Assembly: GCF_904426505.1 (NCBI RefSeq) | Contig: NZ_CAJGBN010000012.1 | Location: forward strand, 186,001-250,000 | Source: Rubrivivax sp. A210 | GTDB taxonomy: Bacteria > Pseudomonadota > Gammaproteobacteria > Burkholderiales > Burkholderiaceae_C | DNA: 64,000 nucleotides | Direction: 5' to 3' | Shown here: piece by piece, positions 45,973-64,000 of the stretch | Numbering within the stretch: position 1 is the stretch's first letter | How the letters are laid out: the number at the start of each line of letters is the position of its first letter | The notes under the pieces: generated by a model | The model's database searches: none | Seen by the model: the letters and a program-made list of their open reading frames with translations, nothing else | Told to the model about the DNA's origin: nothing | Program-made: the position numbers and the translations under genes

Positions 45973-46002
45973 ATGGGGCAGACAGGGCCGGTGTCGGCAT
46001 GA
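45973..46002 (+). CDS. Nine-codon leader ORF coupled to the eCIS cap gene
   Basis: GAGGAG, 6 nt upstream, is an excellent Shine-Dalgarno for the ATG at 45973. The ORF encodes MGQTGPVSA and stops at a TGA that overlaps the ATG of the cap gene (ATGA). The cap ATG itself has no Shine-Dalgarno in the preceding 20 nt. Ribosomes would therefore reach the operon by termination-reinitiation. It was inferred from sequence only; the peptide may have no function of its own. Confidence 0.4.
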   Translation: MGQTGPVSA

Positions 46003-46583
46003 TCGCCGAGGTCTTCAAGTTCCTGCGGGAACACCTGAACGAGGCCCTCCCACGCGATTCAGCGGGCGGCGCCGTCGAAGACCTTTTCGTCTACGTCGGC
46101 TCAGGCAAGGAAGACGCGGTCAGTTTCAAGGCCGATGCCGTGTCGCTGCTGCTGGTGCGCGTCGAGCAGGACGCCACGCTGCGTCCGCCCGATCTCTACA
46201 CGCGCATCTCGTCGGTGGGCTCGCACCAGAAGGTCGAACCCGAGATCCGCCTCAACCTCAGCCTGCTGCTGGTGGCGCGCTTCCCCGACGACTACCTGCA
46301 GGCGCTGCACCACCTGTCGCGCGTGATCCGGTATTTCCAGAACCACCGCGTCTTCAATCCGGCCAATGCGCCCGATCTGCCTGACGGCATATCGCAGTTG
46401 GTGTTGGAGCTCGTGACCCCCACCTTCTCGGAACAGAACGAGATCTGGGGCACGCTGCGCACCGCCTACCTGCCCAGCGCGATGTACAAGCTGCGCATGG
46501 TCGTTTTCCAGGACGACGAAGGCCAGCCGACCACGGCAGTCAAGGAACTCATGCAGAGCGTGACCCAGGTTCCGCAGACATGA
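45999..46583 (+). CDS. eCIS cap / tube-terminator protein (DUF4255, Pvc16/Afp16-like)
   Basis: The 194-residue protein belongs to DUF4255, the family of Afp16 and Pvc16, which cap the distal end of the contractile tube and sheath and set particle length. Characteristic parts are the N-terminal IAEVFKFLREHLNEAL, the central LNLSLLLVARFPDDYLQALHHLSRVIRYFQNHRVF and SEQNEIWGTLRTAYLPSAMYKLRMV. In Afp/PVC clusters the cap gene is last, whereas here it opens the operon, an order also known from other eCIS lineages. Its start is coupled to a 9-codon leader and its end overlaps the next gene by 4 nt (ATGA). Confidence 0.87.
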   Translation: MIAEVFKFLREHLNEALPRDSAGGAVEDLFVYVGSGKEDAVSFKADAVSLLLVRVEQDATLRPPDLYTRISSVGSHQKVEPEIRLNLSLLLVARFPDDYLQALHHLSRVIRYFQNHRVFNPANAPDLPDGISQLVLELVTPTFSEQNEIWGTLRTAYLPSAMYKLRMVVFQDDEGQPTTAVKELMQSVTQVPQT

Positions 46584-47665
46584 AATTCCTGGCCCTCTTC
46601 GGCGTGCGCCTGCGGCACGAAGGCTACCCGGCGGGGGTTCGCCCCGACGCCGCGCTGGCGCCCTCCGAAGCCACGCGCCGCCTGCTGGCCCGCTACCGCC
46701 TGCGCCTGCAGGAGCAGCCCGACGGCCTGACGGTCTGGGCCATGGCCCGCCCAGATGGCAAGGCGCCCCTGCTGCCTCTGGCGCGTGCCGAGGTCTTCGG
46801 CTTCGAGTTGCGCGCGCATTCAGCCGAGTTCGCACTCGCCACCGACATGGCCGAACTTTCGGCCATGGCCGATCCGGTCTACAGCAATGCCGCGCTGGGC
46901 GCGAACGACGCGCGCACGCTCGTGCCCGCCGACCGCAAGAACTGGCACATCCAGGCCGTGGACGCGCCCGCCGACGGCACATCGACACGGCGCGTGCTGG
47001 CCGCGCAGCCCCTTCCCGCCGGCGATGCGCAGCGGCCACCCCGGGCATCGGACATCAGCGTCACTGCAGAGTTAGGCACTGCGCGCGTCACCGCCTACGA
47101 CGCCGCCACGCGCACCGCCACCCTCCAGGCCTCGAGCGGCGCCCAGGGCCTGGCGCTGCGCTACCGCACCCTTGCCCCGGTGCGGCGTGACACGCTGGCC
47201 GAGGTGCAGGTGGTCGTCAACCGCTCGTTGCCGGCCCCGGGCAGCGCCGATGCCGATTTCGAGATCCGATTCAAGGCGCGCGCCGTGCATTGGGCCTACT
47301 ACCTGGTGACCGACCAGCCCGGAGACTTCGCCATCATCGATGCCGATGCGGCTGCGCCCATCGTCTTCGGTGCGCAAAGCACCACCTTGCTCAATGGGGC
47401 CGCCGATGCATCCGATCCTCAGGCCGCGGCCCTGGCCGCGCAATACCCCGGGCAGCGGCGCATCCGCTTCCTGTCGGACCAGCCCGTGCCCTGCGGCAGC
47501 AGCCCGCGCAAGGGCCTGGCCCTCTTCCAGGGCGGCCAGCGCGTGCTCGGGCCGCTGCCCAATGCCTCGCTCACGCGGCCGACCCGCTTCATGCGCGCCA
47601 CAGCTGGCGCTCCTCAGGACCAGGACGGCATCTGCCAGGTCCTCAAGTATCTGAAGTCCCGCTAA
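46580..47665 (+). CDS. Uncharacterised eCIS-operon protein (361 residues)
   Basis: I do not recognise this family. The protein has no signal peptide or membrane segment. The first 120 residues are mixed and Arg-rich (RRLLARYRLRLQEQPDG); the rest looks beta-rich, with two regions resembling stacked beta strands (about 150-210 and 215-270). A Cys in VPCGSSPRKGLALFQGG near residue 310 and a C-terminal CQVLKYLKSR are notable. It overlaps the cap gene and precedes the sheath gene by 25 nt, so it is surely part of the operon. A structural or assembly role at the cap-sheath end is a guess from position. Confidence 0.75.
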   Translation: MKFLALFGVRLRHEGYPAGVRPDAALAPSEATRRLLARYRLRLQEQPDGLTVWAMARPDGKAPLLPLARAEVFGFELRAHSAEFALATDMAELSAMADPVYSNAALGANDARTLVPADRKNWHIQAVDAPADGTSTRRVLAAQPLPAGDAQRPPRASDISVTAELGTARVTAYDAATRTATLQASSGAQGLALRYRTLAPVRRDTLAEVQVVVNRSLPAPGSADADFEIRFKARAVHWAYYLVTDQPGDFAIIDADAAAPIVFGAQSTTLLNGAADASDPQAAALAAQYPGQRRIRFLSDQPVPCGSSPRKGLALFQGGQRVLGPLPNASLTRPTRFMRATAGAPQDQDGICQVLKYLKSR

Positions 47666-47690
47666 CGCTCAACCAAGGGAAACGCGCAAC

Positions 47691-49364
47691 ATGGCCACCT
47701 ACAGAACCCCCGGCGTCTACGTCGAAGAGATCTCCACCCTGCCGCCGTCGGTGGCCGAAGTGGCCACCGCGGTGCCGGCCTTCATCGGCTACACCGAGAC
47801 CGGTCCGGCCGACAGCGGTGACCCGCATGTGGTGCGCGTGGCCACGATGCTCGAGTTCGAGAGTGCCTTTGGGGGCCCGCAGGCGATCAAGTTCAACGTC
47901 AACGAGCCGGCCGCGTCCGACCCCGGCGCAGGCCCCACGGTGCAGATGGTGGCGCCCGCCAACGGCTTCTCGCTCTATTACGCGATGAGCCTGTATTTCC
48001 GCAATGGCGGCGGGCCTTGCTATGTGGTGTCAGTGGGCAACTACAAGGCGACGCCGAGCAAGGCGCGCTACTCGGCCGGCCTGCTGGCGCTGGAGCGCGA
48101 GGACGAACCGACACTGATCGTGCTCAGCGATGCGGCCAGCGTGCTCACGTCCACCGACTACTACGCCCTGTGCGGCGAGGCGCTGATGCAATGCCGCAAG
48201 CTCGGCGACCGCTTCACCATCCTCGACATCCCCAAGGGTGACTGGCAGGGCTTCCGCAACGACAGCAACCTCTCGGCCAACCTGATGTACGGCGCGGCCT
48301 ACCACCCCTATCTGCAAAGCTCGATCTCCTACGACGTCGCCGATGGCGACGTCACCATCAAGCGTGCCGTCCAGGCCAGCAGCAATGTCACCGGCAACCT
48401 GCCCCTGGGCGGCGCCAACGGCATCAGCGTCAGCTTCACCGGCGCCGCCGGCAGCAGCGCCGGCGTGGCCGTCACCTTCGGTACACAGGAAGCTTCTGCC
48501 AGCTTCACGGTGGCGGCAGGCACGCTGACCCTCAGCGACGTGAATGGCCAGACCGGCGACAGCATCGCCACCGCCTGGGCCACCTGGAAGCTGACCAACA
48601 ACGCGGCCGGCTTCGACATCGCCAAGAACGGCGACGGCTCGGCCGCCATTGCCACCGCCGACCTGCCGGCTGCGGCCATTCCTTTGCCGGCCCCCAACGC
48701 CGGCACCGACACGCTGGCAACCATCAAGAACCGTGAGACCGGGCTGTACAACAAGGCCAAGGCCGCGCTGTCGGAGCAGCGCGTGGTGCTGCCGCCGAGC
48801 GCGGCTATGGCCGGCATCTATGCCCGCGTCGACCGCGAGCGCGGTGTCTGGAAGGCGCCGGCCAATGTCGGCGTGCTGGCAGTGCTGGGGCCGGTGTCCA
48901 AGATCACCGACGATGACCAGGATCGCCTCAACGTCGATGCCACTGCCGGCAAGTCGATCAACGCCATCCGTGCGTTCACCGGCAAGGGCACGTTGGTGTG
49001 GGGCGCGCGCACCCTGGCAGGCAATGACAACGAATGGCGCTACGTGCCGGTGCGGCGCCTCTTCATCACCATCGAAGAGTCAGCCAAGAAGGCCAGTGCC
49101 TTCGCGGTGTTCGAGCCCAATGACCAGACCACCTGGCTCAAGGTCAAGGCCATGATCGAGAGCTATCTCTACGGCCTGTGGGAGGCCGGCGCGCTGGCCG
49201 GGGCCAAGCCCGAGGCCGCCTATTTCGTGCATGTGGGTCTGGGCACCACGATGACGCCGCAAGACGTGCTCGAGGGCCGCATGATCGTCGAGATCGGCAT
49301 TGCCGCGGTACGCCCGGCGGAATTCATCATCCTGCGCTTCTCGCACAAGCTGCAGACGGCCTGA
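47691..49364 (+). CDS. eCIS contractile sheath protein (Afp2/Pvc2-like)
   Basis: The 557-residue protein has the phage-tail-sheath N-terminus TYRTPGVYVEEISTLPPSVAEV and a C-terminal sheath domain ending in VEIGIAAVRPAEFIILRFSHKLQTA, the strand exchanged between subunits. VPVRRLFITIEESAKKASAFAVFEPND matches the conserved core. Between about residues 208 and 343 is a Gly/Ala/Thr-rich beta insertion not found in the shortest sheaths; it would face the particle outside. The operon has one sheath gene, while Afp and PVC have three. AAGGGA precedes the ATG. Confidence 0.95.
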   Translation: MATYRTPGVYVEEISTLPPSVAEVATAVPAFIGYTETGPADSGDPHVVRVATMLEFESAFGGPQAIKFNVNEPAASDPGAGPTVQMVAPANGFSLYYAMSLYFRNGGGPCYVVSVGNYKATPSKARYSAGLLALEREDEPTLIVLSDAASVLTSTDYYALCGEALMQCRKLGDRFTILDIPKGDWQGFRNDSNLSANLMYGAAYHPYLQSSISYDVADGDVTIKRAVQASSNVTGNLPLGGANGISVSFTGAAGSSAGVAVTFGTQEASASFTVAAGTLTLSDVNGQTGDSIATAWATWKLTNNAAGFDIAKNGDGSAAIATADLPAAAIPLPAPNAGTDTLATIKNRETGLYNKAKAALSEQRVVLPPSAAMAGIYARVDRERGVWKAPANVGVLAVLGPVSKITDDDQDRLNVDATAGKSINAIRAFTGKGTLVWGARTLAGNDNEWRYVPVRRLFITIEESAKKASAFAVFEPNDQTTWLKVKAMIESYLYGLWEAGALAGAKPEAAYFVHVGLGTTMTPQDVLEGRMIVEIGIAAVRPAEFIILRFSHKLQTA

Positions 49365-49414
49365 CGGCCGGAGCCGCCAACCGCCCCCCACCCTGAACAA
49401 CGAGGCGAACCACC

Positions 49415-49882
49415 ATGGCTCTCACCAAAGACCAGATCAAGACCACCTACCCGCTGCCGGTCTACAACTACCGCGTCGAGATCGACGGCAAGGCCGTCGC
49501 CTTCTCCGAGGTCTCGGGCCTGAGCGTCGGCTACGAGACCAGCACCTATGTCGAAAGCCCGACCTCGGGCGTGGGCCCGCGGCGCATGGTGATGCCGGGC
49601 CAGCGCAAGACGGCCACCGTCACGATGAAGAAGGGCGTGGTCACTGGCGTCAGCGTGCCGACACTGTTTGCCTGGATCAACTCGATCCAGCTCAACCGCG
49701 TCGACAAGAAGGATGTCTACATCCGCCTGTGCGACGAGTCCGGCGCCGCGGTCGTGAGTTGGAAGCTGATCAACGCCTTCCCGACCAAGCTCGACGCCCC
49801 CAGCTTCACCGCCAGTTCCAACGACGTCGCGGTCGAGAGCATGGAGTTGACGGCCGACGGCGTGGTCATCGAGCAAGCCTGA
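49415..49882 (+). CDS. eCIS inner-tube protein (Afp1/Pvc1-like)
   Basis: The 155-residue tail-tube protein shows YPLPVYNYRVEIDGKAVAFSEV, SEVSGLSVGYETSTYVES, MKKGVVTGVS and the closing SFTASSNDVAVESMELTADG, the pattern of Hcp-like tubes in T4 gp19/Afp1 relatives. It would stack as hexameric rings inside the sheath. It is 50 nt after the sheath gene, the usual order, and is probably the major tube subunit because it has the most generic sequence of the three paralogues. Confidence 0.93.
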   Translation: MALTKDQIKTTYPLPVYNYRVEIDGKAVAFSEVSGLSVGYETSTYVESPTSGVGPRRMVMPGQRKTATVTMKKGVVTGVSVPTLFAWINSIQLNRVDKKDVYIRLCDESGAAVVSWKLINAFPTKLDAPSFTASSNDVAVESMELTADGVVIEQA

Positions 49883-49922
49883 CCCCGCTGCTGCCAGGCA
49901 GAACCCGGCCGGACCCAGCCCC

Positions 49923-50366
49923 ATGGCGGAATCAGCAGCAGCCCAGAGGTCGAAGTACCCGGTCGCGAGCTACAACTTCCGTGTCACCGTGGGCGACACG
50001 ACGATGAGCTTCACCGAGGTGTCGGGCCTGGTGCGCGAGTACCAGACGCTGAGCTACCGCCACGGCCTGAGCTTTCTCGAGGGCGAGGAGATCGTCAAGT
50101 TTCGCCACGACAAGTACGTGTCGCTGACGATGAAGAAGGGCGTCGTCGCTGGCGCCATCGCGCTGTATCAATGGCTGGAAGGCAGCGAGCGCAAGAGCCT
50201 CAGTGTGAGCCTGTGCGACGAGAAGGGCGACGCAGTGGTCACCTGGCAGATCAAGAAGGCCTTGCTCGTCAAGCTCGATGCCCCGGCGCTGCAGGCCAGC
50301 TCCAACGAGGCCGCCATCGAGACGCTGACGCTGATGGCATCGGGCATCTCGGTCGAGCACCATTGA
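49923..50366 (+). CDS. eCIS inner-tube protein, second paralogue (Afp1/Afp5-like)
   Basis: The 147-residue paralogue shares YPVASYNFRVTVGDTTMSFTEV, FTEVSGLVREYQTL, MKKGVVAGAIALYQWL and LQASSNEAAIETLTLMASG with the preceding tube protein. It could be an alternative tube subunit or the tube initiator that sits on the baseplate (Afp5 role). The 40-nt gap to the preceding gene and 13-nt gap to the next show it is in the operon. Confidence 0.9.
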   Translation: MAESAAAQRSKYPVASYNFRVTVGDTTMSFTEVSGLVREYQTLSYRHGLSFLEGEEIVKFRHDKYVSLTMKKGVVAGAIALYQWLEGSERKSLSVSLCDEKGDAVVTWQIKKALLVKLDAPALQASSNEAAIETLTLMASGISVEHH

Positions 50367-50379
50367 GGCGGCCTCGGGC

Positions 50380-50826
50380 ATGAGCGATCCCATCCTCGGC
50401 ATGCGCTTCGGCGTGCTCTTCCTGGCGGGCGGGGTCGTGCCCAATCCGCTGGACATCCGCTTCCAAAAGGTTTCGGGCCTGTCGGCCGAGGTCGAGACCG
50501 AGTCGATCAGCGAAGGCGGCCAAAACCTCTACACCCAGCGCCTGCCCAAGGGCGTGAAGTACGGCAACCTGGTGCTCACGCGCGGCATGGTCATTGGCTC
50601 GCCGCTCAACCTCGAATTCAACGCCACGCTGTCACTCTTCAAGTTCGCCACCTCCACCGTCATGGTCACCCTGCTCGCCGAGGACATGGCGCCCCTGGCC
50701 GCCTGGCTTTTTCTCAAGGCCTATCCGGTGAAGTGGTCAACCTCGGAACTCAGCGCCAGCGAGCCTTCGCTGGTGATTGACACGATGGAACTGGCCTACA
50801 CCCGCATGCAGGTGCTGAGGATATGA
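50380..50826 (+). CDS. eCIS tube-initiator-like protein (Afp5/Pvc5-like)
   Basis: The 148-residue protein is a diverged tube-fold member: ILGMRFGVLFLAGGVVPNPLDIRFQKVSG, then VKYGNLVLTRGMV and YPVKWSTSELSASEPSLVIDTMELAY. In other clusters this variant starts tube assembly on the hub. It lacks the MKKGVV loop shared by the two preceding paralogues, supporting a separate position. Its stop overlaps the start of a 25-codon ORF by 4 nt. Confidence 0.87.
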   Translation: MSDPILGMRFGVLFLAGGVVPNPLDIRFQKVSGLSAEVETESISEGGQNLYTQRLPKGVKYGNLVLTRGMVIGSPLNLEFNATLSLFKFATSTVMVTLLAEDMAPLAAWLFLKAYPVKWSTSELSASEPSLVIDTMELAYTRMQVLRI

Positions 50827-50900
50827 ACGCCAGCCACTGCGACCGGGCGATGGCAGTCCTCACTGCGCGGCAGGCGGCCCGTGCCGCAGGCGGAGGCTGA
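50823..50900 (+). CDS. 25-residue ORF between tube and DUF5908 genes
   Basis: The ATG overlaps the tube-initiator stop (ATGA) and the ORF encodes MNASHCDRAMAVLTARQAAR followed by AAGGG, ending at a TGA one base before the DUF5908 ATG (TGAGATG). The geometry favours translational coupling. It may be a true micro-protein or only a ribosome relay; nothing in the sequence gives a function. Confidence 0.3.
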   Translation: MNASHCDRAMAVLTARQAARAAGGG

Positions 50901-50901
50901 G

Positions 50902-51093
50902 ATGCCGGTCGAGATCAGGGAACTGGTGATACGCGCCGTCGTCGACCGGGGCCAGGACGCGCCTGTCAGCGACGAAGGCGTGAGTGTGAGCGCATCGCCC
51001 GGCGGCGGCAGCACTGGCGCCGATTTCGACGCCCTCGTGCAGGCCTGTGTGGCACAGGTGCTGCGCATCCTGGAGCACAAGAGAGAGCGCTGA
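50902..51093 (+). CDS. DUF5908 small eCIS protein (Afp6/Pvc6-like)
   Basis: The 63-residue protein begins MPVEIRELVIRAVV, the hallmark of DUF5908, followed by a Gly/Ser linker and a terminal helix LVQACVAQVLRILEHKRER. Members are encoded between tube-initiator and LysM genes in eCIS clusters (Afp6/Pvc6 position); their role is unknown. The ATG at 50902 is chosen over a GTG 21 nt upstream because GGAGG stands 6 nt before it. Confidence 0.85.
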   Translation: MPVEIRELVIRAVVDRGQDAPVSDEGVSVSASPGGGSTGADFDALVQACVAQVLRILEHKRER

Positions 51094-51095
51094 GC

Positions 51096-51830
51096 ATGTC
51101 GCTGCTGAACCTGTTCAAGCTCGAGAAGCTGCGCATCGAGGGCTTCAAGGCCGAGGGCCGCGGAGCCTCCGACTTCGTGGGCGAAATGGAGTTGATGTTC
51201 AACCCCACGACGCTGCAGGAAAAGCACGCCGTCACCTACCAGTCGGCCCGCATTCAGGCCATCAACTCGGCCGGCAAGCCCGCGCTCTACAGCCACACGC
51301 CACCGGGCGACCTGAGCTTCCAGTTCCTGCTTGACGGCACCGGCGTCAACTTCATGGGCGTAGAGCAGTTGGCGCGCACCATCAGCGGCGCCAGCGTCAA
51401 GAAGGACATCGCCAAGTTCAAGAAGCTCTGCCTCGAGATGAACGGCGACATCCACCAACCCAACTTCCTGAAGATCAGCTGGGGCGACTTCAAGTTCTCC
51501 TGCCGCCTGGCCAACCTCGACATCACCTACAAGCTGTTCGACGAATCCGGCGATCCGTTGCGCGCCGATCTGAGCGTCAAGTTCGTCAAGGACAAGAGTG
51601 CCAAGACCATCGCGCTCGAATCCGACAAGAAGTCGCCTGACCTGACCCACCTGCGCACCGTCAAGGCCGGCGACACGCTGCCGCTGCTGTGCAAGGAGAT
51701 CTACGGCTCCTCGGCCCACTACCTGCGCGTGGCGGCCGACAACCGCCTCGACGATTTTCGCAACCTGGTGCCGGGCCAGCAGTTGCGCTTCGCGCCGCTG
51801 CCGCGCAGCAACGACCCGGCGCGCGGCTGA
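51096..51830 (+). CDS. eCIS tube-baseplate adaptor with LysM domain (Afp7/Pvc7-like)
   Basis: The 244-residue protein combines a tube-adaptor domain (about 10-180, with MFNPTTLQEKHAVTYQ and ISWGDFKFSCRLANLDITYKL) and a C-terminal LysM module (about 188-240: RTVKAGDTLPLLCKEIYG, then NRLDDFRNLVPGQQL). It corresponds to T4 gp53-like and Afp7 proteins that join the tube to the spike hub and baseplate. It lies 2 nt after the DUF5908 gene and 2 nt before the spike gene, so the order matches other eCIS. Confidence 0.92.
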   Translation: MSLLNLFKLEKLRIEGFKAEGRGASDFVGEMELMFNPTTLQEKHAVTYQSARIQAINSAGKPALYSHTPPGDLSFQFLLDGTGVNFMGVEQLARTISGASVKKDIAKFKKLCLEMNGDIHQPNFLKISWGDFKFSCRLANLDITYKLFDESGDPLRADLSVKFVKDKSAKTIALESDKKSPDLTHLRTVKAGDTLPLLCKEIYGSSAHYLRVAADNRLDDFRNLVPGQQLRFAPLPRSNDPARG

Positions 51831-51832
51831 CC

Positions 51833-53500
51833 ATGCCCTCCTCCCCCAGCCTCGCATCGGACATGGGCGTCGTCACGGCAACCATACTCAGCGAGGGCAC
51901 GGCCCTTGACCATACCTGCGCGGTCGTGGCCATCGACATCCGGCGCGAGGCCAACCGCATCCCGCGCGCCACCCTGGTGCTGATGGACGGCGACGCGACG
52001 ACCGGCGATTTCGCCGTCAGCAGCAGCACCAGGTTCGAGCCCGGCCGGCTGATCGAGATCAAGCTGCGCTACGAGGGGGGATCGGGCGGGGACAACACGG
52101 TCTTCAAGGGCCCCGTCGTGCGCCATGCCATCGAGGCCCATGGCGGCGGCTCGGCGCTGCGCGTCGAGATGCGCGATGCCGCCATCCGCCTGGCCCAGGG
52201 CCGCAAGAGCGCCGTCTATCGCGACAAGACCGATGCCGACGTGGCCGGCGCAATCATCAGCGCGGCCGGCCTTAGAAAGGGCGAGATCACCGCCACCAAG
52301 ACCACCCATCCTGAACTGGTGCAGCACGCCTGTTCCGACTGGGACTTCATCGCCGCTCGCGCCGATGCCAATGGCCTGCTGGTGGTGGCCGAAGACGGCA
52401 AGCTGTCGCTCGCCAAGCCCGAGCTGTCGGGCAGCGCCGTGCTCACCGTCGAATACGGCATGGACATCCACGACCTCGAGTTCGAGCTCGACGCCGCGAG
52501 CCAGTTCGACGATGTCCAGGGCCAGGCCTGGGATCTCAAGGAACAGAAGCCCACCGCGGCGGTCAAGGCCAAGAGCCTCGACCTCGCCCAAGGCAATCTC
52601 AAGGGCGACAAGATGGCGCAGGCGCTGAGCAACCCGCCGCTGCTGCTCAGCCATCCGGTGCCGGTGATGCCCGACGAGTTGCAGGCCTGGGCCGATGCCC
52701 GCCTGCAGCGCAGCCGCATGGCCATGATCCGCGGCCGCGTGACCGTGCAGGGTACGGCCCTGCCCCAGCTGCTTGACCTCATCGAGATCAAGGGCGTCGG
52801 CGACCGCTTCAATGGCAAGGCCCTGGTCACCGGCCTGTCGCACCGCGTCGACCAAGGCAACTGGCGCACCGACATCCAGATCGGCCTTTCGCCGCGCCGC
52901 TTCTGCGAAGAGGACGGCCTGCTCGACGCGCCCGCCGCCGGCCTGCTGCCGGCCGTGGGCGGGCTGCAGATCGGCGTCGTCGCCGCCTTCAAGGAAGACC
53001 CCGACAAGCAACTGCGCGTCCAGGTCGAACTCGTCGGCCTCGGCAGCGAGGCCGGGCCCGTGTGGGCGCGCCTGGCGGTGCCCGACGGCGGCAAGGCGCG
53101 CGGTTTCTTCTTCCGCCCCGAACCGGGCGACGAGGTCGTGGTCGGCTTCTTCAATCAAGACCCGCGCCAGCCGGTCATCCTGGGCTCGCTCTACGGCTCC
53201 AAGAACACGGCACCGAAGGATTTGGTCGCCACCGAGGACAACCTGGCCAAGGGCATCGTCTCGCGCGCCGGCACCAAGATTCTCTTCACGGACGCCGACA
53301 AGCCCAAGCTGACGCTGGAAACACCGGCCAAGAACACCATCGTGCTCGACGACGACCAGGAGGCCATCGTCATCACCGACAAGCACGGCAACAAGATCAC
53401 CCTCGACAAGGACGGCATCACCATCGACAGCGCCAAAGACCTGAAATTCAGCGCCAAAGGCAATGTCGAGATCAAGGGCCAGAAGGTCGACGTCAAGTAA
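51833..53500 (+). CDS. VgrG-like central spike protein (Afp8/Pvc8-like)
   Basis: The 555-residue protein has the gp27-like hub domains (about 1-360), an OB-fold gp5-like domain (about 375-460: LQIGVVAAFKEDPDKQLRVQVEL, PEPGDEVVVGFFNQDPRQPVILG) and a C-terminal beta-helix with stepwise repeats such as NTIVLDDDQEAIVITDKHGN and KITLDKDG, ending KGQKVDVK. A trimer forms the membrane-piercing needle and docks the PAAR-like tip encoded downstream. No extra catalytic domain is fused, so the toxin payload must be separate. Confidence 0.94.
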   Translation: MPSSPSLASDMGVVTATILSEGTALDHTCAVVAIDIRREANRIPRATLVLMDGDATTGDFAVSSSTRFEPGRLIEIKLRYEGGSGGDNTVFKGPVVRHAIEAHGGGSALRVEMRDAAIRLAQGRKSAVYRDKTDADVAGAIISAAGLRKGEITATKTTHPELVQHACSDWDFIAARADANGLLVVAEDGKLSLAKPELSGSAVLTVEYGMDIHDLEFELDAASQFDDVQGQAWDLKEQKPTAAVKAKSLDLAQGNLKGDKMAQALSNPPLLLSHPVPVMPDELQAWADARLQRSRMAMIRGRVTVQGTALPQLLDLIEIKGVGDRFNGKALVTGLSHRVDQGNWRTDIQIGLSPRRFCEEDGLLDAPAAGLLPAVGGLQIGVVAAFKEDPDKQLRVQVELVGLGSEAGPVWARLAVPDGGKARGFFFRPEPGDEVVVGFFNQDPRQPVILGSLYGSKNTAPKDLVATEDNLAKGIVSRAGTKILFTDADKPKLTLETPAKNTIVLDDDQEAIVITDKHGNKITLDKDGITIDSAKDLKFSAKGNVEIKGQKVDVK

Positions 53501-53560: not shown

Positions 53561-53734
53561 ATGCAGGACATCAAGCTCAACCTGGCCATTGAAGACGTGA
53601 ACCTCATCCTCGAAGGCCTGGGCAACATGCCCTATGCCAAGGTCTACACCCTGGTGGCCAAGATCCAGGAACAGGCAGCCCGTCAGCTCGAGGCGGCGCG
53701 CCCCGCCGCCACACCGACGGGCGCCGGGGGCTGA
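53561..53734 (+). CDS. 57-residue conserved-looking small eCIS protein
   Basis: The product starts MQDIKLNLAIEDVNLILEGL, followed by GNMPYAKVYTLVAKIQEQAA and an Ala/Pro-rich tail. The core DVNLILEGLGNMPYAKVY resembles small helical proteins of phage and tail-like clusters, where it appears near baseplate genes; no function is known to me. It has a plausible Shine-Dalgarno (GAAGAAGAG) and lies 60 nt after the spike gene and 4 nt before the gp25-like gene. Two amphipathic helices are predicted by eye. Confidence 0.75.
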   Translation: MQDIKLNLAIEDVNLILEGLGNMPYAKVYTLVAKIQEQAARQLEAARPAATPTGAGG

Positions 53735-53738: not shown

Positions 53739-54155
53739 ATGTCCGACGAGGCCAGCTTCCTCGGCGCCGGCTGGGCCTGGCCGCCCGCCTTCGGGCCGGC
53801 GGGCAGCACGGTGGCCATGGTCGCCGGCAGCGACGACATCGCGCAAAGCCTGGCCATCCTGCTCACCACGCGGCGCGGCGAGCGCGTGATGCAGGACGAC
53901 TTCGGCTGCGAACTGAGCGAGTTCATGTTCGGCGAGATCAGCCAGGGCCTGATTGGGCGGGTGCGCGACGTCGTCGCCGACGCCATCCTGCACCATGAGC
54001 CGCGCATCAACCTGAACGGCGTCGAGATCTCGGACAGCGGCGCGCAGGCGGGCCTGCTGCTGATCGCCATCGACTACACGGTGCGGGCCACCAACTCCCG
54101 CTACAACATGGTCTACCCCTACTACCTCAACGAAGCCTCGGCGGCGGCGGGCTGA
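53739..54155 (+). CDS. eCIS baseplate wedge protein (gp25/Afp9-like)
   Basis: The 138-residue protein shows the gpW/gp25 family core: DDIAQSLAILLTTRRGERVMQ, the EPR-type motif in HHEPRINLNGVEIS and a final strand IAIDYTVRATNSRYNMVYPYY. In contractile systems gp25 contacts the sheath and nucleates its polymerisation from the baseplate. Gene order spike, small protein, gp25, tip, J matches eCIS organisation. Confidence 0.93.
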   Translation: MSDEASFLGAGWAWPPAFGPAGSTVAMVAGSDDIAQSLAILLTTRRGERVMQDDFGCELSEFMFGEISQGLIGRVRDVVADAILHHEPRINLNGVEISDSGAQAGLLLIAIDYTVRATNSRYNMVYPYYLNEASAAAG

Positions 54156-57600: not shown

Positions 57601-59069
57601 CCGCGGCCATCGCCAACAAGACCGGCACAACCACCGTCAACCCGGCCCTCTACCAGCTCAACCCGCCCTACACGCCCAAGGTCAAGAGCCTGAGCCTGGA
57701 CTACTCGGCCTCGGTCGACCTGACCCTGGATGCCGGGCCCGCTGCCGGCACCGCTACTGCCGAGCGCCTGTTCCACGTCGAGCCCTTCGGCTGGCGCGAA
57801 CTGCAGCGCCAGGCCACGCAGCCCGGTTGCCCTTGGCTGCCCCAGTACAGCCACGAGGGCGAGCTCTACATCGGCCTCGCCCAGGTCAATGCACTGCAGA
57901 ACGTCTCGCTGCTGTTCCAGGTGGCCGACGGCAGCGCCAACCCCGAACTCGCGCCCGAGCCGGTGCAGTGGAGCTATCTCAGCGGCGACCGCTGGCTCAC
58001 GCTGCACGAAGGTGGACTGCTCGCCGACGGCACGCGCGGCTTCATCAACTCCGGCATCGTCGAGTTCGCGCTCCAGCCGGCCAAGCCCAGCACGCTGCTG
58101 GCGCCCGGCCTGTACTGGCTGCGCGCCGCCATCACGCGCCGCGCCGGCAGCGTCTGCGACATGGTGGCCATCCACGCCAATGCGGTGGCCGCCCGCTTCG
58201 ACGACCAGGACAACGCCCCCGACCATCTGGCCGAGCCACTGCCCGCCAAGCGCATCAAGGCCCCGGTGGCGCCCGTGCCCGGCCTGCTGGGCCTGCAGCA
58301 GCCCTACACCTCCTTCGGCGGCAAGACGGCCGAGCGCGACGGCGATTTCCATGTGCGCGTGGCCGAACGCCTGCGCCACAAGCAGCGCGCGCTCACGCCC
58401 TGGGACTACGAGCGCCTGGTGCTCGAGCGCTTTCCGCACATCTTCAAGGTCAAGTGCCTGAGCGCCGATCCACAGGCCCACCCGCGCCAGGCCGGGCTGA
58501 TCGAGTTGGTCGTCATCCCCGACATCCGCAACCGCTTCCAGTACGACCCCTTCGAGCCCAAGGCGCCGGCCGATGTGATCCGCGACATCGAGACCTACCT
58601 GCAGGACAAGACGCCGCCCTGCGCCAGCGTCAAGGTGAAGAACGCGCACTACGTGCCGGTGAAGGTGCGCTGCGGCGTGCGCTTCGTGGCCGGCGCCGAC
58701 GAGGGTTTCAGCCGCCTGCGCCTGAACGAGGAACTGAACCGTTTCCTCTCGCCCTGGGCCTACCAGGAGGGCGAAGACCTGGTCATCGGCGGCAGCGTCT
58801 ATGCCAACAGCCTGATCAACTTCATCGAGCTGCGCGACTACGTCGACTACATCGCCGAGTTCAAGCTCTTCACCAGCGAGGACGAGGGCAAGACCTTCAA
58901 CATGCTGCCCGTCAGCGACAACTACCACGCCCGCGCCGGCCGGCCCGACGGCGTGCTGGTGGCCGCACACGAGCACGACTTCGACGTCATCACGCAGGCC
59001 GACTACCGCCTCGAAGGCCATGCCGGCATCAACTACATGAAGATCGAACTCGACTTCATGGTCGCCTGA
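54606..59069 (+). CDS. Giant baseplate J-like protein (Afp11-like)
   Basis: The 1487-residue protein has a C-terminal baseplate-J-like region (about 1230-1487: RALTPWDYERLVLERFPHIF, VKVRCGVRFVAGADEG, LNRFLSPWAYQEGEDLVIGG). The N-terminal third is helical with HDFAAKLAAALGTPDYTV, and the middle contains an Ala-rich DWARFSQVLEVAQSNREAF block. The C-terminal part is what phage gp6/J and Afp11 use for ring assembly. It is longer than I recall for Afp11/Pvc11, so the extra roughly 500 residues could hold a novel domain. No signal peptide is present. ATG follows the tip gene by 12 nt. Confidence 0.88.
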   Translation: MANGLPSASAIARDGTSQSGRVSRELAPGFALVDERSTRDLLAFARAHARELRYFGLADPEQTEGDWSGFIGDIDLDAAAAYAQAPEAWDEDRAAPLARPHFALFLVFLELLARVREQINTFTGRHLEFHYRDVLRMVRKAAVPDRVHVLVELEAGTPQLLLPAATALRGGVDNLGRELVYRTEREIVANRVQVAALASLHAEIRITGIAEAIDTILESVRRNNTGLKQEGFLALLRIALGQPNAGDPLPVPIYSGVPAPSPQGAVVAVVVDFAALLQVQRLVNVAELALGMPHFDDLRLLMRLRQLRQPKNERADWTRINAILEAAGRMRLGNPSASFGLADSGDFMRNLATVLGKTDAEMAELFNGLLEVKSMEDAYEVYLHRSDVQRFIRNRLFLSLDDFKALMQAKTVMDNQWAEIDRLLQDAGRVKKADPLFELPKAVRLLHDFAAKLAAALGTPDYTVTGGLDAWWQSLQDVERWFRMPAEACKFMLEVVTRTGPAAADPWDWARVGEILAAAHAELIHARRRNALLDLARAQPADRLAALAAMLVRVLDTKPPEGGSLKTWVDEALKTLEALNVGADALRDLGAVAAGTDTAPDWARFSQVLEVAQSNREAFKVPVAERLEWRNLYPAADARAVLARTARDQALPRWRTFGEGEVARTPEPVPAPVFGWALASPLLALSEGQRTVALTLGYSNDPLGFELAKVLALLAPTVNAQLLATVIPFQIELSTAKGWMQPDSQTLSWLNANMDHPRVAGVDTSKLRALQLNLAIAKGKPALAPPTRELHGMEAAAPVLRLMLKPVWSEVEKCYLSPYPVLRRLLLMRVRLGVTASGMQGLQIRNDETVLDAKKPFEPFGIRPATGSRFTVGHPEIVGKRLDTLAFRITWMGVPPLLATHYANYPGALANASFKVAVWLNEAGVHRKVGEPALFATTATDEAVLTLAPPADQGNPGAAQAGAADVGEWNRNFIWELSAPDFQHAAYPALALQKSLELAAAIANKTGTTTVNPALYQLNPPYTPKVKSLSLDYSASVDLTLDAGPAAGTATAERLFHVEPFGWRELQRQATQPGCPWLPQYSHEGELYIGLAQVNALQNVSLLFQVADGSANPELAPEPVQWSYLSGDRWLTLHEGGLLADGTRGFINSGIVEFALQPAKPSTLLAPGLYWLRAAITRRAGSVCDMVAIHANAVAARFDDQDNAPDHLAEPLPAKRIKAPVAPVPGLLGLQQPYTSFGGKTAERDGDFHVRVAERLRHKQRALTPWDYERLVLERFPHIFKVKCLSADPQAHPRQAGLIELVVIPDIRNRFQYDPFEPKAPADVIRDIETYLQDKTPPCASVKVKNAHYVPVKVRCGVRFVAGADEGFSRLRLNEELNRFLSPWAYQEGEDLVIGGSVYANSLINFIELRDYVDYIAEFKLFTSEDEGKTFNMLPVSDNYHARAGRPDGVLVAAHEHDFDVITQADYRLEGHAGINYMKIELDFMVA

Positions 59070-59106: not shown

Positions 59107-61281
59107 ATGGACATCAAGAAATCCGATCGCACCGCGCTCAAGTCCTATTTCGTCAAGAACGCCGTCCCCACGGCCGGCAACTTCGCCGACCTCATCGACG
59201 GCATGCTCAACCAGAAGGAAGACGGCATCGCCAAGTTGGCCGGCGAGCCGCTGAGCCTGCAGGCCGACGGCGACGACAACAGCCAGAAGAAGGCCATCAA
59301 TTTCTACAAGTTCTTCGCCGACGCCAAGCCGGCCTGGACGATTGCCCTGCGCCCGCGCGCCAATCCCAATGACGCCGCCACCGCCCGCGCCGGCTTCAGC
59401 GTCAGCGACGGCGACGGCAACAGCCGCCTCTACATCGACCAGAACACCGGCAATGTCGGCGTCGGCACCGTTTCGCCGGAAGGCTACCGGCTGCATGTAG
59501 CCGGCGGCCCAGCCTTCGTCAATGGCGCCAACCTGATGGTGCTGGCCGAGAACGCCGGCCGCCTGCGCGTCGGCGCAGCCTGGGGCATGCCCGGGGTCTA
59601 TTCCGGCGACGACGGCGCCAAGCCGCTGATGCTGGGCGCGCCACCCGGACAGCGGGTGTTCCTCGGCTCGGGTGCCGGCGACGCCTACGTCGAGGGCGGC
59701 AGCGGAAATGCCTTCTTCAGGGGCAATCTCGGCGTCGGCACGCCAGCGCCAAACCACAAGTTCCACGTCGTCGCCCCCGATGCCGTGGGCCTGTTCGAAT
59801 CCAGCGGCAGCCAGGCCTTTCTGCGCATATCCACCAACGAAGGCTTGGGCAACCGGGTCGAGCTGGCCAATCGCCCCGGCGGCCGCCTGGCCCTGTGGAC
59901 AGCCGGCGGCAGCGACGTGCTCAGCATCCTGCGCGACGGCAGCGTGGGCATAGGCACCACCACGCCGGTGGGCCGGCTCGAGGTCAACGGCACGGCCAGC
60001 GTCAGCAATGGCGTCGGCTTTGCGGTGCGCAACGGCTTCATGGCGCCGGGCTCGCTGACGATAGGCGGCACCAATGCCAACTATGGCGGCGGCAATCTCT
60101 GGAGCCCCAGCACCGCTGGCCTGATGTTAGAGGCCCAGTCCAATACCGAGATCGCGGTACACGACGCCGGCACGCGGCTGACCAGCCTGATGTATTTCGA
60201 GGGCGACGCCATCAACCGCGTCACCATCGGGCGCGACATGGGGTGGGGCCCGCTCAACACGCTGCTGCTCAACGGCAATGTCGGCATCGGCAGCAATGCG
60301 CCGCGCGCCCGGCTCGAGGTGGCCGGCGGCGCGATCATGGCCAGCGCCGGCAGTTCGGGCGCGGCCGGCATCCAGTTCTCCCCCAACCCCGGGGGGGGCG
60401 GCGGCGACGAGGCCGGGCTGCGGTTCTTCGCCCGCACCAGCGAGCACTGCACGCTGGAACTCTTCGTCGGCAACGACCCCCAGGACCACATCGCGCTCAT
60501 TTCGTCCGGCAATGTCGGCATCGGCACCCGCGAGCCGGCCAACAAGCTCGATGTCGCTGGCGACGTGGCCATCCACGGCAAGCATGCCTTTCGCGGCTCC
60601 GACACCTGGCTGCGCATCAACCAGGACCGCGCCTTCACCTCGGGCACGCACGTCCCCGGGGTGCTCGCGCCCGAGTCGCTCAATGTCGGCGGCTGGAGCG
60701 GCTGGGGCAACCCCGGTGCCGGCAACGCCGCCATCACCGGCAACCTCGGTACCCGCGGCTGGTCGCCGACGCCGCGCACCAATGGCTGGGTCGGCGGCAT
60801 CCACACCTGGGACATCGAGGCCGAAGGCACGGTTTGGTCGCGCAACGGCTATCAGACCGGCCCGCGCGACCTGGCCGAGAACTACGCCTCGCTGCAGACG
60901 CTGGAGGCCGGCGAACTGGTCTCGCTGGACCCGGAAGCCGACCGCATCGTGCGCGCAATCAGTGCCAACGACCCGCTGCTGCTGGGCATTGTCTCCACCC
61001 AGCCCGGCTTCCTGCTCAACGTCGACCACGAGTTCCAGGGCGGCACGCTCTACCCCGTTGCACTGTGCGGTCGCGTGCCCTGCAAGGTGGTGGCCGAAAA
61101 CGGCGCCATCAAGCGCGGCGACCTGCTCACCTCTTCGTCGACGCCTGGCCACGCGATGCGGGCCACGCCGGTGGAGGTAGCCGGCCAGAGCTTCTACCGC
61201 CCCGGCACCATCATCGGCAAGGCGCTGGACCCGCTCACTGCGGACAAGGGGCTGATCGATGTCTTCGTCTTTTCGAGCTGA
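59107..61281 (+). CDS. Fibre-like protein with GNVGIGT-type repeats
   Basis: The 724-residue protein has a short N-terminal anchor (DIKKSDRTALKSYFVKNAVP) and a long beta-structured part with five repeats of the type GNVGIGT-P-LEV-G, near residues 116, 206, 278, 390 and 468. This pattern is common in trimeric phage and bacterial surface fibres. The last 130 residues (DLAENYASLQTLEAGELVSLD, GIVSTQPGF, GRVPCKVVAENGAIKRGDLL, STPGHAM, IIGKALDPL) resemble the C-terminal domain of fibres that act as intramolecular chaperones or autoproteases. A receptor-binding role is inferred. It sits between the two J-type genes, an unusual place. Confidence 0.8.
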   Translation: MDIKKSDRTALKSYFVKNAVPTAGNFADLIDGMLNQKEDGIAKLAGEPLSLQADGDDNSQKKAINFYKFFADAKPAWTIALRPRANPNDAATARAGFSVSDGDGNSRLYIDQNTGNVGVGTVSPEGYRLHVAGGPAFVNGANLMVLAENAGRLRVGAAWGMPGVYSGDDGAKPLMLGAPPGQRVFLGSGAGDAYVEGGSGNAFFRGNLGVGTPAPNHKFHVVAPDAVGLFESSGSQAFLRISTNEGLGNRVELANRPGGRLALWTAGGSDVLSILRDGSVGIGTTTPVGRLEVNGTASVSNGVGFAVRNGFMAPGSLTIGGTNANYGGGNLWSPSTAGLMLEAQSNTEIAVHDAGTRLTSLMYFEGDAINRVTIGRDMGWGPLNTLLLNGNVGIGSNAPRARLEVAGGAIMASAGSSGAAGIQFSPNPGGGGGDEAGLRFFARTSEHCTLELFVGNDPQDHIALISSGNVGIGTREPANKLDVAGDVAIHGKHAFRGSDTWLRINQDRAFTSGTHVPGVLAPESLNVGGWSGWGNPGAGNAAITGNLGTRGWSPTPRTNGWVGGIHTWDIEAEGTVWSRNGYQTGPRDLAENYASLQTLEAGELVSLDPEADRIVRAISANDPLLLGIVSTQPGFLLNVDHEFQGGTLYPVALCGRVPCKVVAENGAIKRGDLLTSSSTPGHAMRATPVEVAGQSFYRPGTIIGKALDPLTADKGLIDVFVFSS

Positions 61282-61308
61282 GTCCCGCCGCAGCCGGGGG
61301 ATCGCCGC

Positions 61309-63393
61309 ATGATCACAGCTGAAGGCTCCGTGGCAGGAGCGCCCATCGCCTGGGCGCCGGACTACGCCGCGCTGCGCGAGCAGGGCCTGGCCCTGGTGCA
61401 ACGCCTGGCCGGCCGCGAGTGGACCGACCACAATGCCCACGACCCCGGCATCACCATCCTCGAGCAGCTTTGCTATGCGCTCACCGACCTCGCCTACCGC
61501 GCCGGCTGGGATGTGCCCGATCTGCTGGCTGGCGGTGGCGGCGACCCCTATGCCAGCCTGGCCACGCCGGCCCAGGCCCTGCCCACAAGCCCGGTCACGC
61601 TGACCGACCTGCGCAAGCTGGTGCTCGACGTGCCCGGTGTCAAGAATGCCTGGATAGCCGTTGTCGACGAGGCCCAGGCCCGCTTCGATGCCGCCGACGG
61701 CGAGATCAGCGCGATGGCCGGCGCCCCGGGCGCGAGCGCAAGCCCCAATGTCTCGGAGATCCATCTGCGCGGCCTGCTGCGCGTGCAGATCGAGAAATCC
61801 AGCCTGGTCGACATTGACGGCGGCCTCATCCGCCGCGAGGCCACGAGGCGCCTGCTGCGCTGCCGCGGCTTGTGCCAGGATTTCGAGTCCATCCAGGTGC
61901 TCGAAGACCAGCCCATTCGCCTGGCGGCAACGCTGGAGATAGGCGCCGTTGCCGATGCCACTGCCCTGCTGGCGCGCGTCTACCAGGCCATTGCCAGCTA
62001 CCTCTCGCCCACCGTGCCCTTTCACAGCCTGGCCGAGATGCTGGCGCGCGGCCGGCGCGTGGACGAGATCTTCGAAGGCCCGCCGCTCGAGCACGGCTTC
62101 ATCGATACCGAGGAGATGAGTGCGGTCGAGCGGCGCAGCTCGGTGCGCATCTCCGACCTGATACGCGCGCTGATGGCCGTACACGGCATCGAGGCCGTCA
62201 AGAGCCTGCACTTCCTGGGCGCGGGCGGGCCCTTGCGCGACTGGCTGCTCAGTGTCGACGAAGGCCGCGTGCCGCGCTTCAACCTGCAGGATTCCGACAT
62301 CCGCCTTGAGCGCCGCGGCCTGCGCGTCGACCAGGGCATACAGGCTGCCGCACGCCGCCTCTATGCCGAGCTGGGCCTGGCGGCGAGCCCGGCGCCCATT
62401 GCCGCGGCCGAGCGCGACCTGCGCCCACGGCCGGGCCGCGACCGCGACGCAGCGAGCTACTTTCCGGTGCAGCAGCAGTTTCCGCTCGCCTGGGGCATCG
62501 GTGCGGCCGGCCTGGCCGATTCGGCGCCACCCGAGCGCCGTGCCCAGGCACGCCAGCTCAAGGCCTATCTGATGTTCTTCGAGCAGATCCTGGCCAATGA
62601 ATTCGCCCAGCTGGGCGGCGTGGCGCGGCTGTTCTCGGTCCATGACGAGACACCCGATTCCTACTTTTCGCAGCCCGTGCCCGACAGCGGCGCGCTGGGG
62701 CTGGAGGCCATACGCCGGCCGCGCCCGGCGGCCGAGCGCGCGGCGCTGCTGCAGGCCATCACCGAAGACCCCTGGCAAGCCCGCTCGGCGCGCGCCGGCC
62801 TCGAGCGCCGCGACCGCTTCCTCGACCACCTGCTGGCCCGCCACGGCGAACAGTTCCGCGACTACGCGCTGCTGCAGGCCGGCGCCTGGGGCGAGGACGG
62901 CGACCCGCTGGCCGAACGCATGGCGCGCGACAAGCGCGCCTTCCTGCGCGACTGGCCGCGCATCGCCCGCACGCGCGGCAGCGCCTTCGACTACCTGCAG
63001 CCCGCGGGCGACGACAACCTCGGCGGGCTCGAACTGGGGCTGCGCCGCAAGCTGGGCATCGCCACGGCCGAGGAACGCTTCCACCTCGTCGAGCACATCC
63101 TGCTGCGCCCCCTGGCCGGCGACCTCGCCCAGCGCGGGCCGCTGCTGCGCGCCGCGGCCAGCCGCGATCCCTACTCGCTGCAGTTCAGCCTCGTCTTCCC
63201 CGACTGGCCGGCACGCTACCAGGACGCCAATTTCCGCCAGTTCGTCGAGCAGACGGTGCGCGAGGAAACGCCGGCCCATCTCACTGCCCACCTGATCTGG
63301 CTGGATCGCCCGGCCATGCAGGCCTTCGAGGCCGCCCATGCGCAGTGGCTGGCGCAATGGCGCAGCCATCGCCTGGCTGACCTGGGGCTCTGA
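61309..63393 (+). CDS. Second baseplate protein (Afp12/gpI-like)
   Basis: The 694-residue protein carries the signature of baseplate assembly proteins near the N-terminus, EWTDHNAHDPGITILEQLCY at about residues 36-55, as in Afp12 and related J/I proteins. A helical middle (VRISDLIRALMAVHGIEAVKSL) and a C-terminal ERFHLVEHILLRPLAGD follow. It is expected to bind the J protein in the outer baseplate wedge. Its ATG follows the fibre gene by 27 nt and its stop is 2 nt before the next gene. Confidence 0.85.
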   Translation: MITAEGSVAGAPIAWAPDYAALREQGLALVQRLAGREWTDHNAHDPGITILEQLCYALTDLAYRAGWDVPDLLAGGGGDPYASLATPAQALPTSPVTLTDLRKLVLDVPGVKNAWIAVVDEAQARFDAADGEISAMAGAPGASASPNVSEIHLRGLLRVQIEKSSLVDIDGGLIRREATRRLLRCRGLCQDFESIQVLEDQPIRLAATLEIGAVADATALLARVYQAIASYLSPTVPFHSLAEMLARGRRVDEIFEGPPLEHGFIDTEEMSAVERRSSVRISDLIRALMAVHGIEAVKSLHFLGAGGPLRDWLLSVDEGRVPRFNLQDSDIRLERRGLRVDQGIQAAARRLYAELGLAASPAPIAAAERDLRPRPGRDRDAASYFPVQQQFPLAWGIGAAGLADSAPPERRAQARQLKAYLMFFEQILANEFAQLGGVARLFSVHDETPDSYFSQPVPDSGALGLEAIRRPRPAAERAALLQAITEDPWQARSARAGLERRDRFLDHLLARHGEQFRDYALLQAGAWGEDGDPLAERMARDKRAFLRDWPRIARTRGSAFDYLQPAGDDNLGGLELGLRRKLGIATAEERFHLVEHILLRPLAGDLAQRGPLLRAAASRDPYSLQFSLVFPDWPARYQDANFRQFVEQTVREETPAHLTAHLIWLDRPAMQAFEAAHAQWLAQWRSHRLADLGL

Positions 63394-63395
63394 CC

Positions 63396-64000
63396 ATGGC
63401 CGTCCCCTATCACGACGTTCCTGTGCGCAGTGCGCGCGACCGCGTCATCGACCTGCTTGGCATGGGTGACACCTACCCGCTGACCGACCTGAACGTGGTC
63501 GCCGACCAGCTCAAGGTGGCCTTCGGAGGCACCGCCAAGATCCCGATAGAAAACGCCCAGGACGGCATGAGCTACCAGCTCTGCGGCCCCAAGGGCGTGC
63601 CGCTGGGGCCTGCCTTCCGCGCCGACGGCGACGGCGGCACGCTGGTCATAGAGACGCCGGTGGTGAATGACGACGTCACCTACCGCATCCAGGTCGAGAA
63701 GAAGCATTCGCCCCTGCCGCTGGCGCCGCAGGGGCCGCGCCTGCTCGACGAGGTGGCGCCGGTCAAGGTCGGCATCGACACCACGCTGGTGATCGAGATC
63801 GTCGCGGCGCCGCTGCTCGACGCCGGCAAGGCCAAGCCCCAGCCCGCCGACCCGCGCATCGTGCCCTATGGCAGCAGCGTCGAGGTGCGCGTCAACAAGA
63901 GCCAGGAAGGCGTCGACTACGGGCTCATCCTCGACAACACCGAGCACCCCGATATCACCGCCTCGGGCAATCTCGGCGCCGTGCTGTTGAACACCGGCGC
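63396..64000 (+). CDS. Beta-rich eCIS-operon protein (5' part, cut by window end)
   Basis: The first 201 residues start MAVPYHDVPVRSARDRVIDL, then a possible helical linker, followed by repeated beta-strand stretches such as GTLVIETPVVNDDVTYRIQV and SSVEVRVNKSQEGVDYGLI. These look like Ig-like or carbohydrate-binding beta sandwiches in tandem. No stop is reached at the edge, so the protein is larger. I do not recognise the family. From position it could be a baseplate-attached spoke or adhesin. Confidence 0.7.
   Translation, partial: MAVPYHDVPVRSARDRVIDLLGMGDTYPLTDLNVVADQLKVAFGGTAKIPIENAQDGMSYQLCGPKGVPLGPAFRADGDGGTLVIETPVVNDDVTYRIQVEKKHSPLPLAPQGPRLLDEVAPVKVGIDTTLVIEIVAAPLLDAGKAKPQPADPRIVPYGSSVEVRVNKSQEGVDYGLILDNTEHPDITASGNLGAVLLNTG

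Follow-up and report, generated by a model that had tools for sequence, protein, structure and literature searches.

Does the run of contractile-tail genes at the right-hand end of a 64,000-nucleotide (nt) stretch of Rubrivivax sp. A210 (genome G000, contig C12, positions 186001-250000; the whole stretch is called the window below) encode a complete extracellular contractile injection system (eCIS), and if so, of which kind and with what cargo? An initial annotation of the window had read these genes as an eCIS of the Afp/PVC type in a betaproteobacterial genome, with cargo lying beyond position 64000. We prolonged the sequence rightwards from the same contig (the genome comprises 5.37 Mb in 72 contigs) and continued the window numbering past 64000 (L004 position + 62999), marking such coordinates as extended. 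In all likelihood the locus encodes a complete contractile injection particle, chromosomal in setting and subtype Ib-like within the AlgoCIS/tCIS branch, which a Burkholderiaceae genome probably gained by horizontal transfer; its likeliest cargo is a 310-amino-acid (aa) protein encoded beyond the window.

The operon spans 45999 to about 70282 (extended), with tight spacing between its genes, all of which lie on the + strand:

45999-46583, + strand: cap protein of the Cis16A/Alg16A type, 194 aa (Pfam Pvc16_N, E-value 2e-29; best PDB match the AlgoCIS cap 7adz, 1.1e-13)
46580-47665, + strand: predicted cap adaptor of the Cis16B/Alg16B type, 361 aa (profile A2, see below)
47691-49364, + strand: contractile sheath, 557 aa, one copy in the operon (Pfam sheath domains; PDB Alg2 7adz, 7e-127)
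49415-49882, + strand: tube protein 1 (Pfam Phage_T4_gp19, 1.1e-34)
49923-50366, + strand: tube protein 2 (Pfam Phage_T4_gp19, 2e-24)
50380-50826, + strand: tube protein 3 (Pfam Phage_T4_gp19, 6.6e-27), from its position probably the baseplate-proximal type
50881-51093, + strand: DUF5908 small protein (Pfam PF19265, 6.8e-16)
51096-51830, + strand: spike-tube adaptor of the Afp7/Alg7 type (Pfam CIS_tube, 1.9e-44)
51833-53500, + strand: VgrG-like spike (Pfam Phage_base_V and Phage_GPD), probable start; the longest open reading frame (ORF) runs from 51689
53561-53734, + strand: 57-aa gene between spike and gp25 (ORF)
53739-54155, + strand: gp25-like sheath initiator (Pfam GPW_gp25, 1.9e-22), likely start; the longest ORF runs from 53634
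54162-54593, + strand: PAAR-like spike tip (Pfam CIS_spike_tip, 1.7e-53)
54606-59069, + strand: J protein 1 (J1) of the Alg11/Cis11 type, 1487 aa, with a long N-terminal extension (PDB Alg11, 1.5e-123; All3317, 2.8e-105)
59107-61281, + strand: tail fibre, 724 aa, with an N-terminal baseplate-attachment part and phage-fibre-like repeats (PHROG tail fibre matches)
61309-63393, + strand: J protein 2 (J2) of the Alg12/Cis12 type, short form, 694 aa (PDB All3315, 1.2e-94; Alg12, 2.5e-90)
63396-65483 (extended), + strand: separate 695-aa gene, fused to J2 in four relatives
65500-67518 (extended), + strand: tape measure (PF19268, 1.5e-89)
ending at 68909 (extended), + strand: AAA+ ATPase (PF00004, 6.6e-28)
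68906-69838 (extended), + strand: 310-aa candidate cargo, the first gene after the ATPase
69863-70282 (extended), + strand: 139-aa possible immunity gene, following the 310-aa gene

The core set of a contractile injection system (CIS), namely cap, sheath, tube, spike, tip, gp25, two J proteins, tape measure and AAA+ ATPase, lies in one cluster together with four CIS-specific Pfam families (PF19265, PF19266, PF19267 and PF19268). Pfam, PDB and PHROG matches recovered every gene named in the initial annotation at or near the place given there, on one strand, and the tape measure and ATPase that it had expected further to the right were found. The operon appears intact, none of 19 genes examined containing an internal stop. 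Gaps of at most 60 nt, as it had described them, hold if the 57-aa gene that it did not list is counted; this gene occupies the largest gap of the operon, and if it is ignored spike and gp25 stand about 238 nt apart. The 57-aa gene has no family match, and an 82-aa gene that looks comparable by eye stands at the same place in G716. What had been called a LysM adaptor is an adaptor gene (CIS_tube) in which Pfam calls no LysM domain, the LysM reading having been made by eye. The DUF5908 protein sits where the Alg6 plug does and may act as a plug. Seen against a type VI secretion system, with its TssB/TssC sheath and TssJLM membrane complex, the sheath here is by Pfam of the phage/CIS type. By gene content the eCIS-class assignment stands, and the locus is, as far as genes can tell, a real, complete and well-kept system and one of many: in a scan of genome contigs with an ATPase profile, at least 577 of 592 stretches were confirmed as related.

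Sheath, tube and baseplate are homologous to those of contractile phage tails, as they would be in a remnant or part of a prophage or tailocin, but the chance of such an origin is practically nil. Phage sheaths cover only about a third of the A210 sheath (33-39% in the ten rows listed), with none of the 261 matching phage records reaching 80%. The four CIS-specific families are present, and the neighbours are non-phage genes (TamA/TamB-like, GGDEF, S41 protease, LOG, arginase, trypsin-like and FHA). As the initial annotation had stated for phage genes, Pfam scans of 13 neighbouring frames (5 + 8, not the whole 64 kb) gave no capsid, portal or terminase; 12 of these frames have a non-phage family and one has no family. 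DUF4157 (eCIS_core), a common eCIS marker though not a universal one, gave no match at the locus, and the genome's sole match belongs to a second CIS locus on a different contig, described below.

As to the kind of system, the top PDB match is AlgoCIS for the sheath, the cap and J1, and Anabaena tCIS for J2. The sheath scored 427 bits against Alg2 versus 257 against Pvc3, its matches being Alg2 (7e-127), All3325 of Anabaena (5.6e-122), 9r9h (2.8e-103) and Pvc3 (3.4e-75); 9r9h was taken as the SalCIS sheath because its neighbour entry 9r9n names SalCis16b. J1 scored 417 bits against Alg11 versus 172 against the Photorhabdus chain 9qgl (the best of that side) and 149 against Pvc11, and J2 scored 321 bits against All3315 versus 99 against Pvc12. 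The cap matched, in this order, AlgoCIS, 9wt1 (an entry with the same sheath sequence as AlgoCIS), a chain of 9r9n and All3327, with Afp16 and Pvc16 absent from its PDB matches at an E-value of 1. An Afp/PVC-type (subtype Ia) eCIS would share the same core families and would explain why the Pvc3, Pvc2 and Afp sheaths also match, but the scores for sheath, J1 and J2 fall far below those of AlgoCIS/tCIS, and a cap adaptor, one sheath gene and a cap-first order are present; we regard this reading, and with it the Afp/PVC label of the initial annotation, as very improbable. The comparisons place the locus in the AlgoCIS/tCIS branch, probably as a subtype Ib-like system. Cap-first order, cap pair and single sheath gene are normal for that branch; the first and last of these, which the initial annotation had thought distinctive, do set the locus apart from Afp and PVC and are usual in AlgoCIS/tCIS, judging from the clusters compared and from the available text on tCIS.

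The second gene of the operon is a predicted cap adaptor. On its own, the 361-aa protein gave nothing relevant in PDB, Pfam, NCBIfam or PHROGs. Profile A2, built from it and its positional counterparts in four genomes (G770, G640, G808 and G752), had cap adaptors as its top three PDB matches: SalCis16b (a strong match, 5.4e-8), All3326 (0.055) and AlgoCIS Alg16B (a weak direct match, 0.41). It also located a gene between cap and sheath in 9 of 15 clusters (five of the nine went into the profile itself and so match of necessity), in 5 of 7 of a second set and in 3 of the 87 loci of a third; the cap gene is visible in 12 of the 15 clusters of the first set and in 5 of the 87 loci of the third. 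The three cap-bearing clusters of the 15 that gave no match are those of the sister systems G445, G716 and G776, which would be natural counterparts of the AlgoCIS cap-adaptor deletion.

Both J-type baseplate proteins of the initial annotation were recovered by their PDB matches. J1 has a Pfam Baseplate_J score of 19.8 bits, just below the cut-off of 21.1, and J2 has no Pfam match and an NCBIfam match far below threshold. With 1487 aa, J1 is longer than Alg11 (1050 aa), and it aligns with its G445, G716 and G776 counterparts over almost its full length. A Barstar-like score within the N-terminal extension (54606-56400) stayed under the family cut-off whether the whole protein or its N-terminal part was scanned, and we claim no function for that stretch. 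The fibre gene lies between the two J genes, as does Cis13/All3316; fibre homologues occur in 25 of 87 loci, and 11 of the 12 shown start within the first 8 residues of the fibre.

The 695-aa gene begins 2 nt past the J2 stop, with its own start and in a different frame (TGACCATG at the joint). A single ORF of 1189-1501 aa holds J2 and this outer part in L025, L064/G776 (counted as one contig, the ATPase being identical), G445 and G716, and the junction aligns in one run with the fused proteins of L025 and L064, the two relatives aligned. Presumably the outer part of J2 became a separate gene here, or the parts fused in the other systems. We considered a frameshift or sequencing error; we read the split as a probable gene fission because the frames differ, the alignment with the fused relatives is one run and the second ORF has its own start. 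A short J2 followed directly by the tape measure is found in G317 and G881, and J2 is also short in G293 and G352. Against solved chains the 695-aa protein gave nothing relevant, either singly (one chance match, E-value 0.72) or as a profile, and the tape measure gave chance matches only against the PDB.

The short J2 also bears on whether the particle is released. A CIS that is anchored to a membrane or acts in the cytoplasm (examples are tCIS and the Streptomyces CIS) would serve the producer's own lysis or stress response, and tCIS is, with one other, the nearest of the solved systems and has the same gene order where its available text names the genes. However, a hydropathy scan, which does not cover amphipathic helices, found no transmembrane-like segment in the structural proteins including the fibre (highest 19-residue Kyte-Doolittle mean 1.88), the 694-aa J2 is too short for the extension (residues 610-1100) that the available text of the tCIS paper ties to thylakoid contact (PMC8894136), and a phage-like fibre is present. 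We consider this reading quite unlikely, and do not favour the anchored particle that the initial annotation had offered beside a released one.

A candidate for the cargo expected beyond 64000 does lie there, and as a candidate gene only the 310-aa gene would be the likeliest. Two points were counted in its favour: the gene starts inside the ATPase stop codon (ATGA, a 4-nt overlap), and its product has an N-terminal motif in common with both candidate cargo genes of L025. The protein consists of a low-complexity N terminus, a glycine-rich stretch, which we take to be of a type known from membrane-inserting proteins, and a C-terminal part. It gave no match in plasmids. Matches in 12 other genomes of the 399 from the order (13 including its own) were rejected as homologues because they span 42-127 residues, all over the glycine-rich stretch. 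For the C-terminal part, a single homologue turned up among 159 other genomes of the family: a G463 protein (39% identity, E-value 2.4e-11) with a PEP-CTERM-like end (named by eye). The 139-aa gene that follows matches no Pfam, NCBIfam or PHROG family, and a small gene likewise stands behind the DUF4157 cargo gene of L025. Effector-immunity pairs adjoining eCIS operons are described in the available text of PMC8213781, in which most tested toxins have no visible immunity gene; we therefore offer an immunity protein as a fair guess for the 139-aa product and no more. Such a role would plausibly point to bacterial targets.

The motif (AYGIDSLD, residues 35-42 of the 310-aa protein) was sought in two forms. 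The wide pattern xYG[ILVM][DENQ]x[LIVMF]D, within the first 130 residues, matched 5 of 4965 ORFs of at least 100 aa: the 310-aa gene (twice, in two loci), both L025 candidate cargo genes (500 aa with eCIS_core (DUF4157), and 1647 aa) and a single hydrophobic protein from L056. With the narrow pattern xYG[IL][DE]xLD, 6 of 7171 ORFs of this size from 267 loci matched; they amount to three genes, the 310-aa gene (four times) and the two of L025. The patterns were picked after the three proteins had been seen, and their rarity is therefore no test. By BLAST the three proteins have nothing else credible in common (best E-value 0.13). In the wider set DUF4157 is the usual cargo marker (61 ORFs in 46 of 87 loci match a regular expression for its core). 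As far as their available texts go, a machine-learning study detected no specific conserved signal sequence for eCIS cargo (PMC11297309), a PVC study sorts signal peptides into groups by alignment (PMC11495950), and our literature search turned up no printed cargo motif of this kind. We put forward as a speculative and rather doubtful proposal that xYG[IL][DE]xLD, from residue 31-35, may be a short linear tag near the N terminus, recognised by the branch's own ATPase without DUF4157, that the 310-aa protein may be a DUF4157-free antibacterial effector with the 139-aa gene as its immunity gene, and that its C-terminal part may be a new effector domain, also found in an exported PEP-CTERM-like protein. 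The potential importance of the locus lies in cargo recognition: if the proposal is true, a short tag common to otherwise unlike cargo genes of one branch would make loading directly testable.

Several observations weigh against the reading of the locus as a complete Ib-like particle with this cargo. What is shown for the locus is gene content, order, integrity and homology, a consensus scan gave no promoter, and the Ib-like placement comes from PDB sequence scores and the cap-adaptor profile. The 310-aa protein has no known domain, with weak scores on the glycine-rich stretch being all that Pfam, NCBIfam and PHROGs give; its predicted fold (single-sequence prediction, mean pLDDT 38.8) is unusable, and its first 35 residues are only mildly hydrophilic by a published criterion, below both L025 cargo genes. 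The motif is based on three proteins from two genomes. Within the same clade of the ATPase tree (below), L042 lacks it in its DUF4157 genes and G776 lacks it in the gene that follows the ATPase, while G445, G716 and L028 have no clear cargo gene at that place. The 139-aa gene had one very weak match in 159 other genomes.

If the particle works as AlgoCIS does, it would assemble in the cytoplasm from a gp25/J-protein baseplate, tube and sheath would grow until they reach the length that the tape measure dictates, and cap and cap adaptor would close it. The AAA+ ATPase would load cargo into the tube via a disordered N terminus; after release the fibre would bind the target, the J1 extension, as a spike cage, would open, the sheath would contract and the cargo would be delivered. 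The available texts on AlgoCIS describe cytoplasmic assembly, a cargo-filled tube, fibre binding, opening of the J1 cage, iris expansion and sheath contraction (PMC8894135, PMC13314943), and that on PVC describes ATPase-dependent loading through a disordered N terminus (PMC11495950). For the A210 particle we infer assembly, release, loading, firing, cargo identity, immunity and target.

How did a Burkholderiaceae genome come by the system? From the scan with the ATPase profile the best 80 stretches were kept, and the ATPase tree has 98 rows (these 80, the A210 sequence and 17 others, with quick supports only), without G637, G808, G752, G796, G317, G293, G352 and G372. The A210 ATPase, which in the best segment is 63% identical to that of L025 (Rhodocyclaceae metagenome-assembled genome JAEUNM010000110.1), falls in a clade of SH-aLRT 99 with L025, L028 and L042 (Bacteroidota bins), G445, G716 and L064/G776; the second CIS locus and one Chromobacterium row have long branches. 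L064/G776 is Burkholderiaceae, the family of A210, in keeping with the betaproteobacterial genome of the initial annotation, and eCIS in Betaproteobacteria are already in print in the available text of PMC8213781. PF19268 occurs in 4 of 61 genomes of genus and order, J2 homologues in 29 of 399 family genomes at an E-value of 1e-3, and at 1e-30 in 12 of 399 order and 4 of 398 phylum genomes, A210 included in each. This patchy spread fits a horizontally moving system, and the same available text reports such movement for eCIS (PMC8213781). Clusters that look like eCIS were also seen on plasmids of Iodobacter fluviatilis and Chromobacterium violaceum (pChV1) (L176, L177), with sheaths about 49% identical, and 32 loci from contigs of a viral collection (L179-L210) encode relatives of the CIS ATPase, some of which may be CIS loci filed as viruses.

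The locus is chromosomal and lies between a tRNA-Arg(CCT) gene (45717-45791) and a conserved S41 protease gene, in an interval reaching to 70513 (extended). In G007, G032 and G012 the stretch from the TamB gene and tRNA-Arg(CCT) to the same S41 protease gene is occupied by other genes; G019 has unrelated genes beside the S41 gene, some integrase-like by eye, and G024 and G017 have no tRNA-Arg within the stretch fetched. The tRNA-Arg/S41 interval is a variable spot whose content changes from species to species within the genus. Downstream, neither strand repeats any 12-nt word of the tRNA-Arg gene exactly, no att-like repeat was seen, and no integrase was seen in the cluster; integration borne by the tRNA was dropped on these grounds, and the variability of the interval is all that we keep.

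The second CIS locus of the genome (C1, about 669287-694243) contains sheath, tube, Pvc16_N, AAA, CIS_tube (below cut-off), base_V, gp25, Baseplate_J and DUF6519, as well as the genome's only eCIS_core (DUF4157) match, a 1419-aa protein at C1:677370. It is unlike the first, the sheaths being 40% identical in the C-terminal part only. The available text of PMC8213781 reports more than one eCIS operon per genome for 146 genomes. A third sheath gene (about 478 aa, minus strand, C1 about 126-134 kb, L009) stands beside phage-tail-like genes and looks like part of a prophage or tailocin.

Among the systems found, the nearest to the A210 locus are L025, G445, G716 and G776, and gene order is similar in relatives. 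G445, G716 and G776 (L150-L155) share the J1 extension with A210 and lack a cap adaptor gene between cap and sheath (the L025 stretch ends short of there). The J2 outer part is common to all four, in each of which J2 is one fused ORF, and L025 differs further in carrying a DUF4157 cargo gene beside its 1647-aa candidate. Afp and PVC, with the same core gene families, have several sheath genes and the cap gene last. Their cap is one protein as described in the texts available, whereas the A210 locus has a cap adaptor. Anabaena tCIS, from the available text of its paper (PMC8894136) and the PDB entries, has a comparable cap pair (All3327/All3326), a comparable sheath (All3325) and the same order of J1 (all3317), fibre (all3316) and J2 (all3315), but the A210 J2 has no recognisable membrane-anchoring extension, its fibre has no transmembrane-like segment and nothing among the solved chains resembles its 695-aa protein. 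The AlgoCIS of Algoriphagus machipongonensis (subtype Ib), again from the available texts (PMC8894135, PMC13314943), has in common with the A210 locus a short single-domain cap, a cap adaptor, the sheath, J2 and a long J1, which in AlgoCIS builds the spike cage. It differs in its two DUF4157 cargo genes and 1443-residue Alg19 fibre, where the A210 locus has no DUF4157 protein, a short J2 with a separate outer-part gene and a 724-aa fibre between the J genes. Unusual here are the separate J2 outer part, the DUF4157-free candidate cargo with a motif that also occurs in the nearest system, and the presence of a second, dissimilar CIS locus in the genome.

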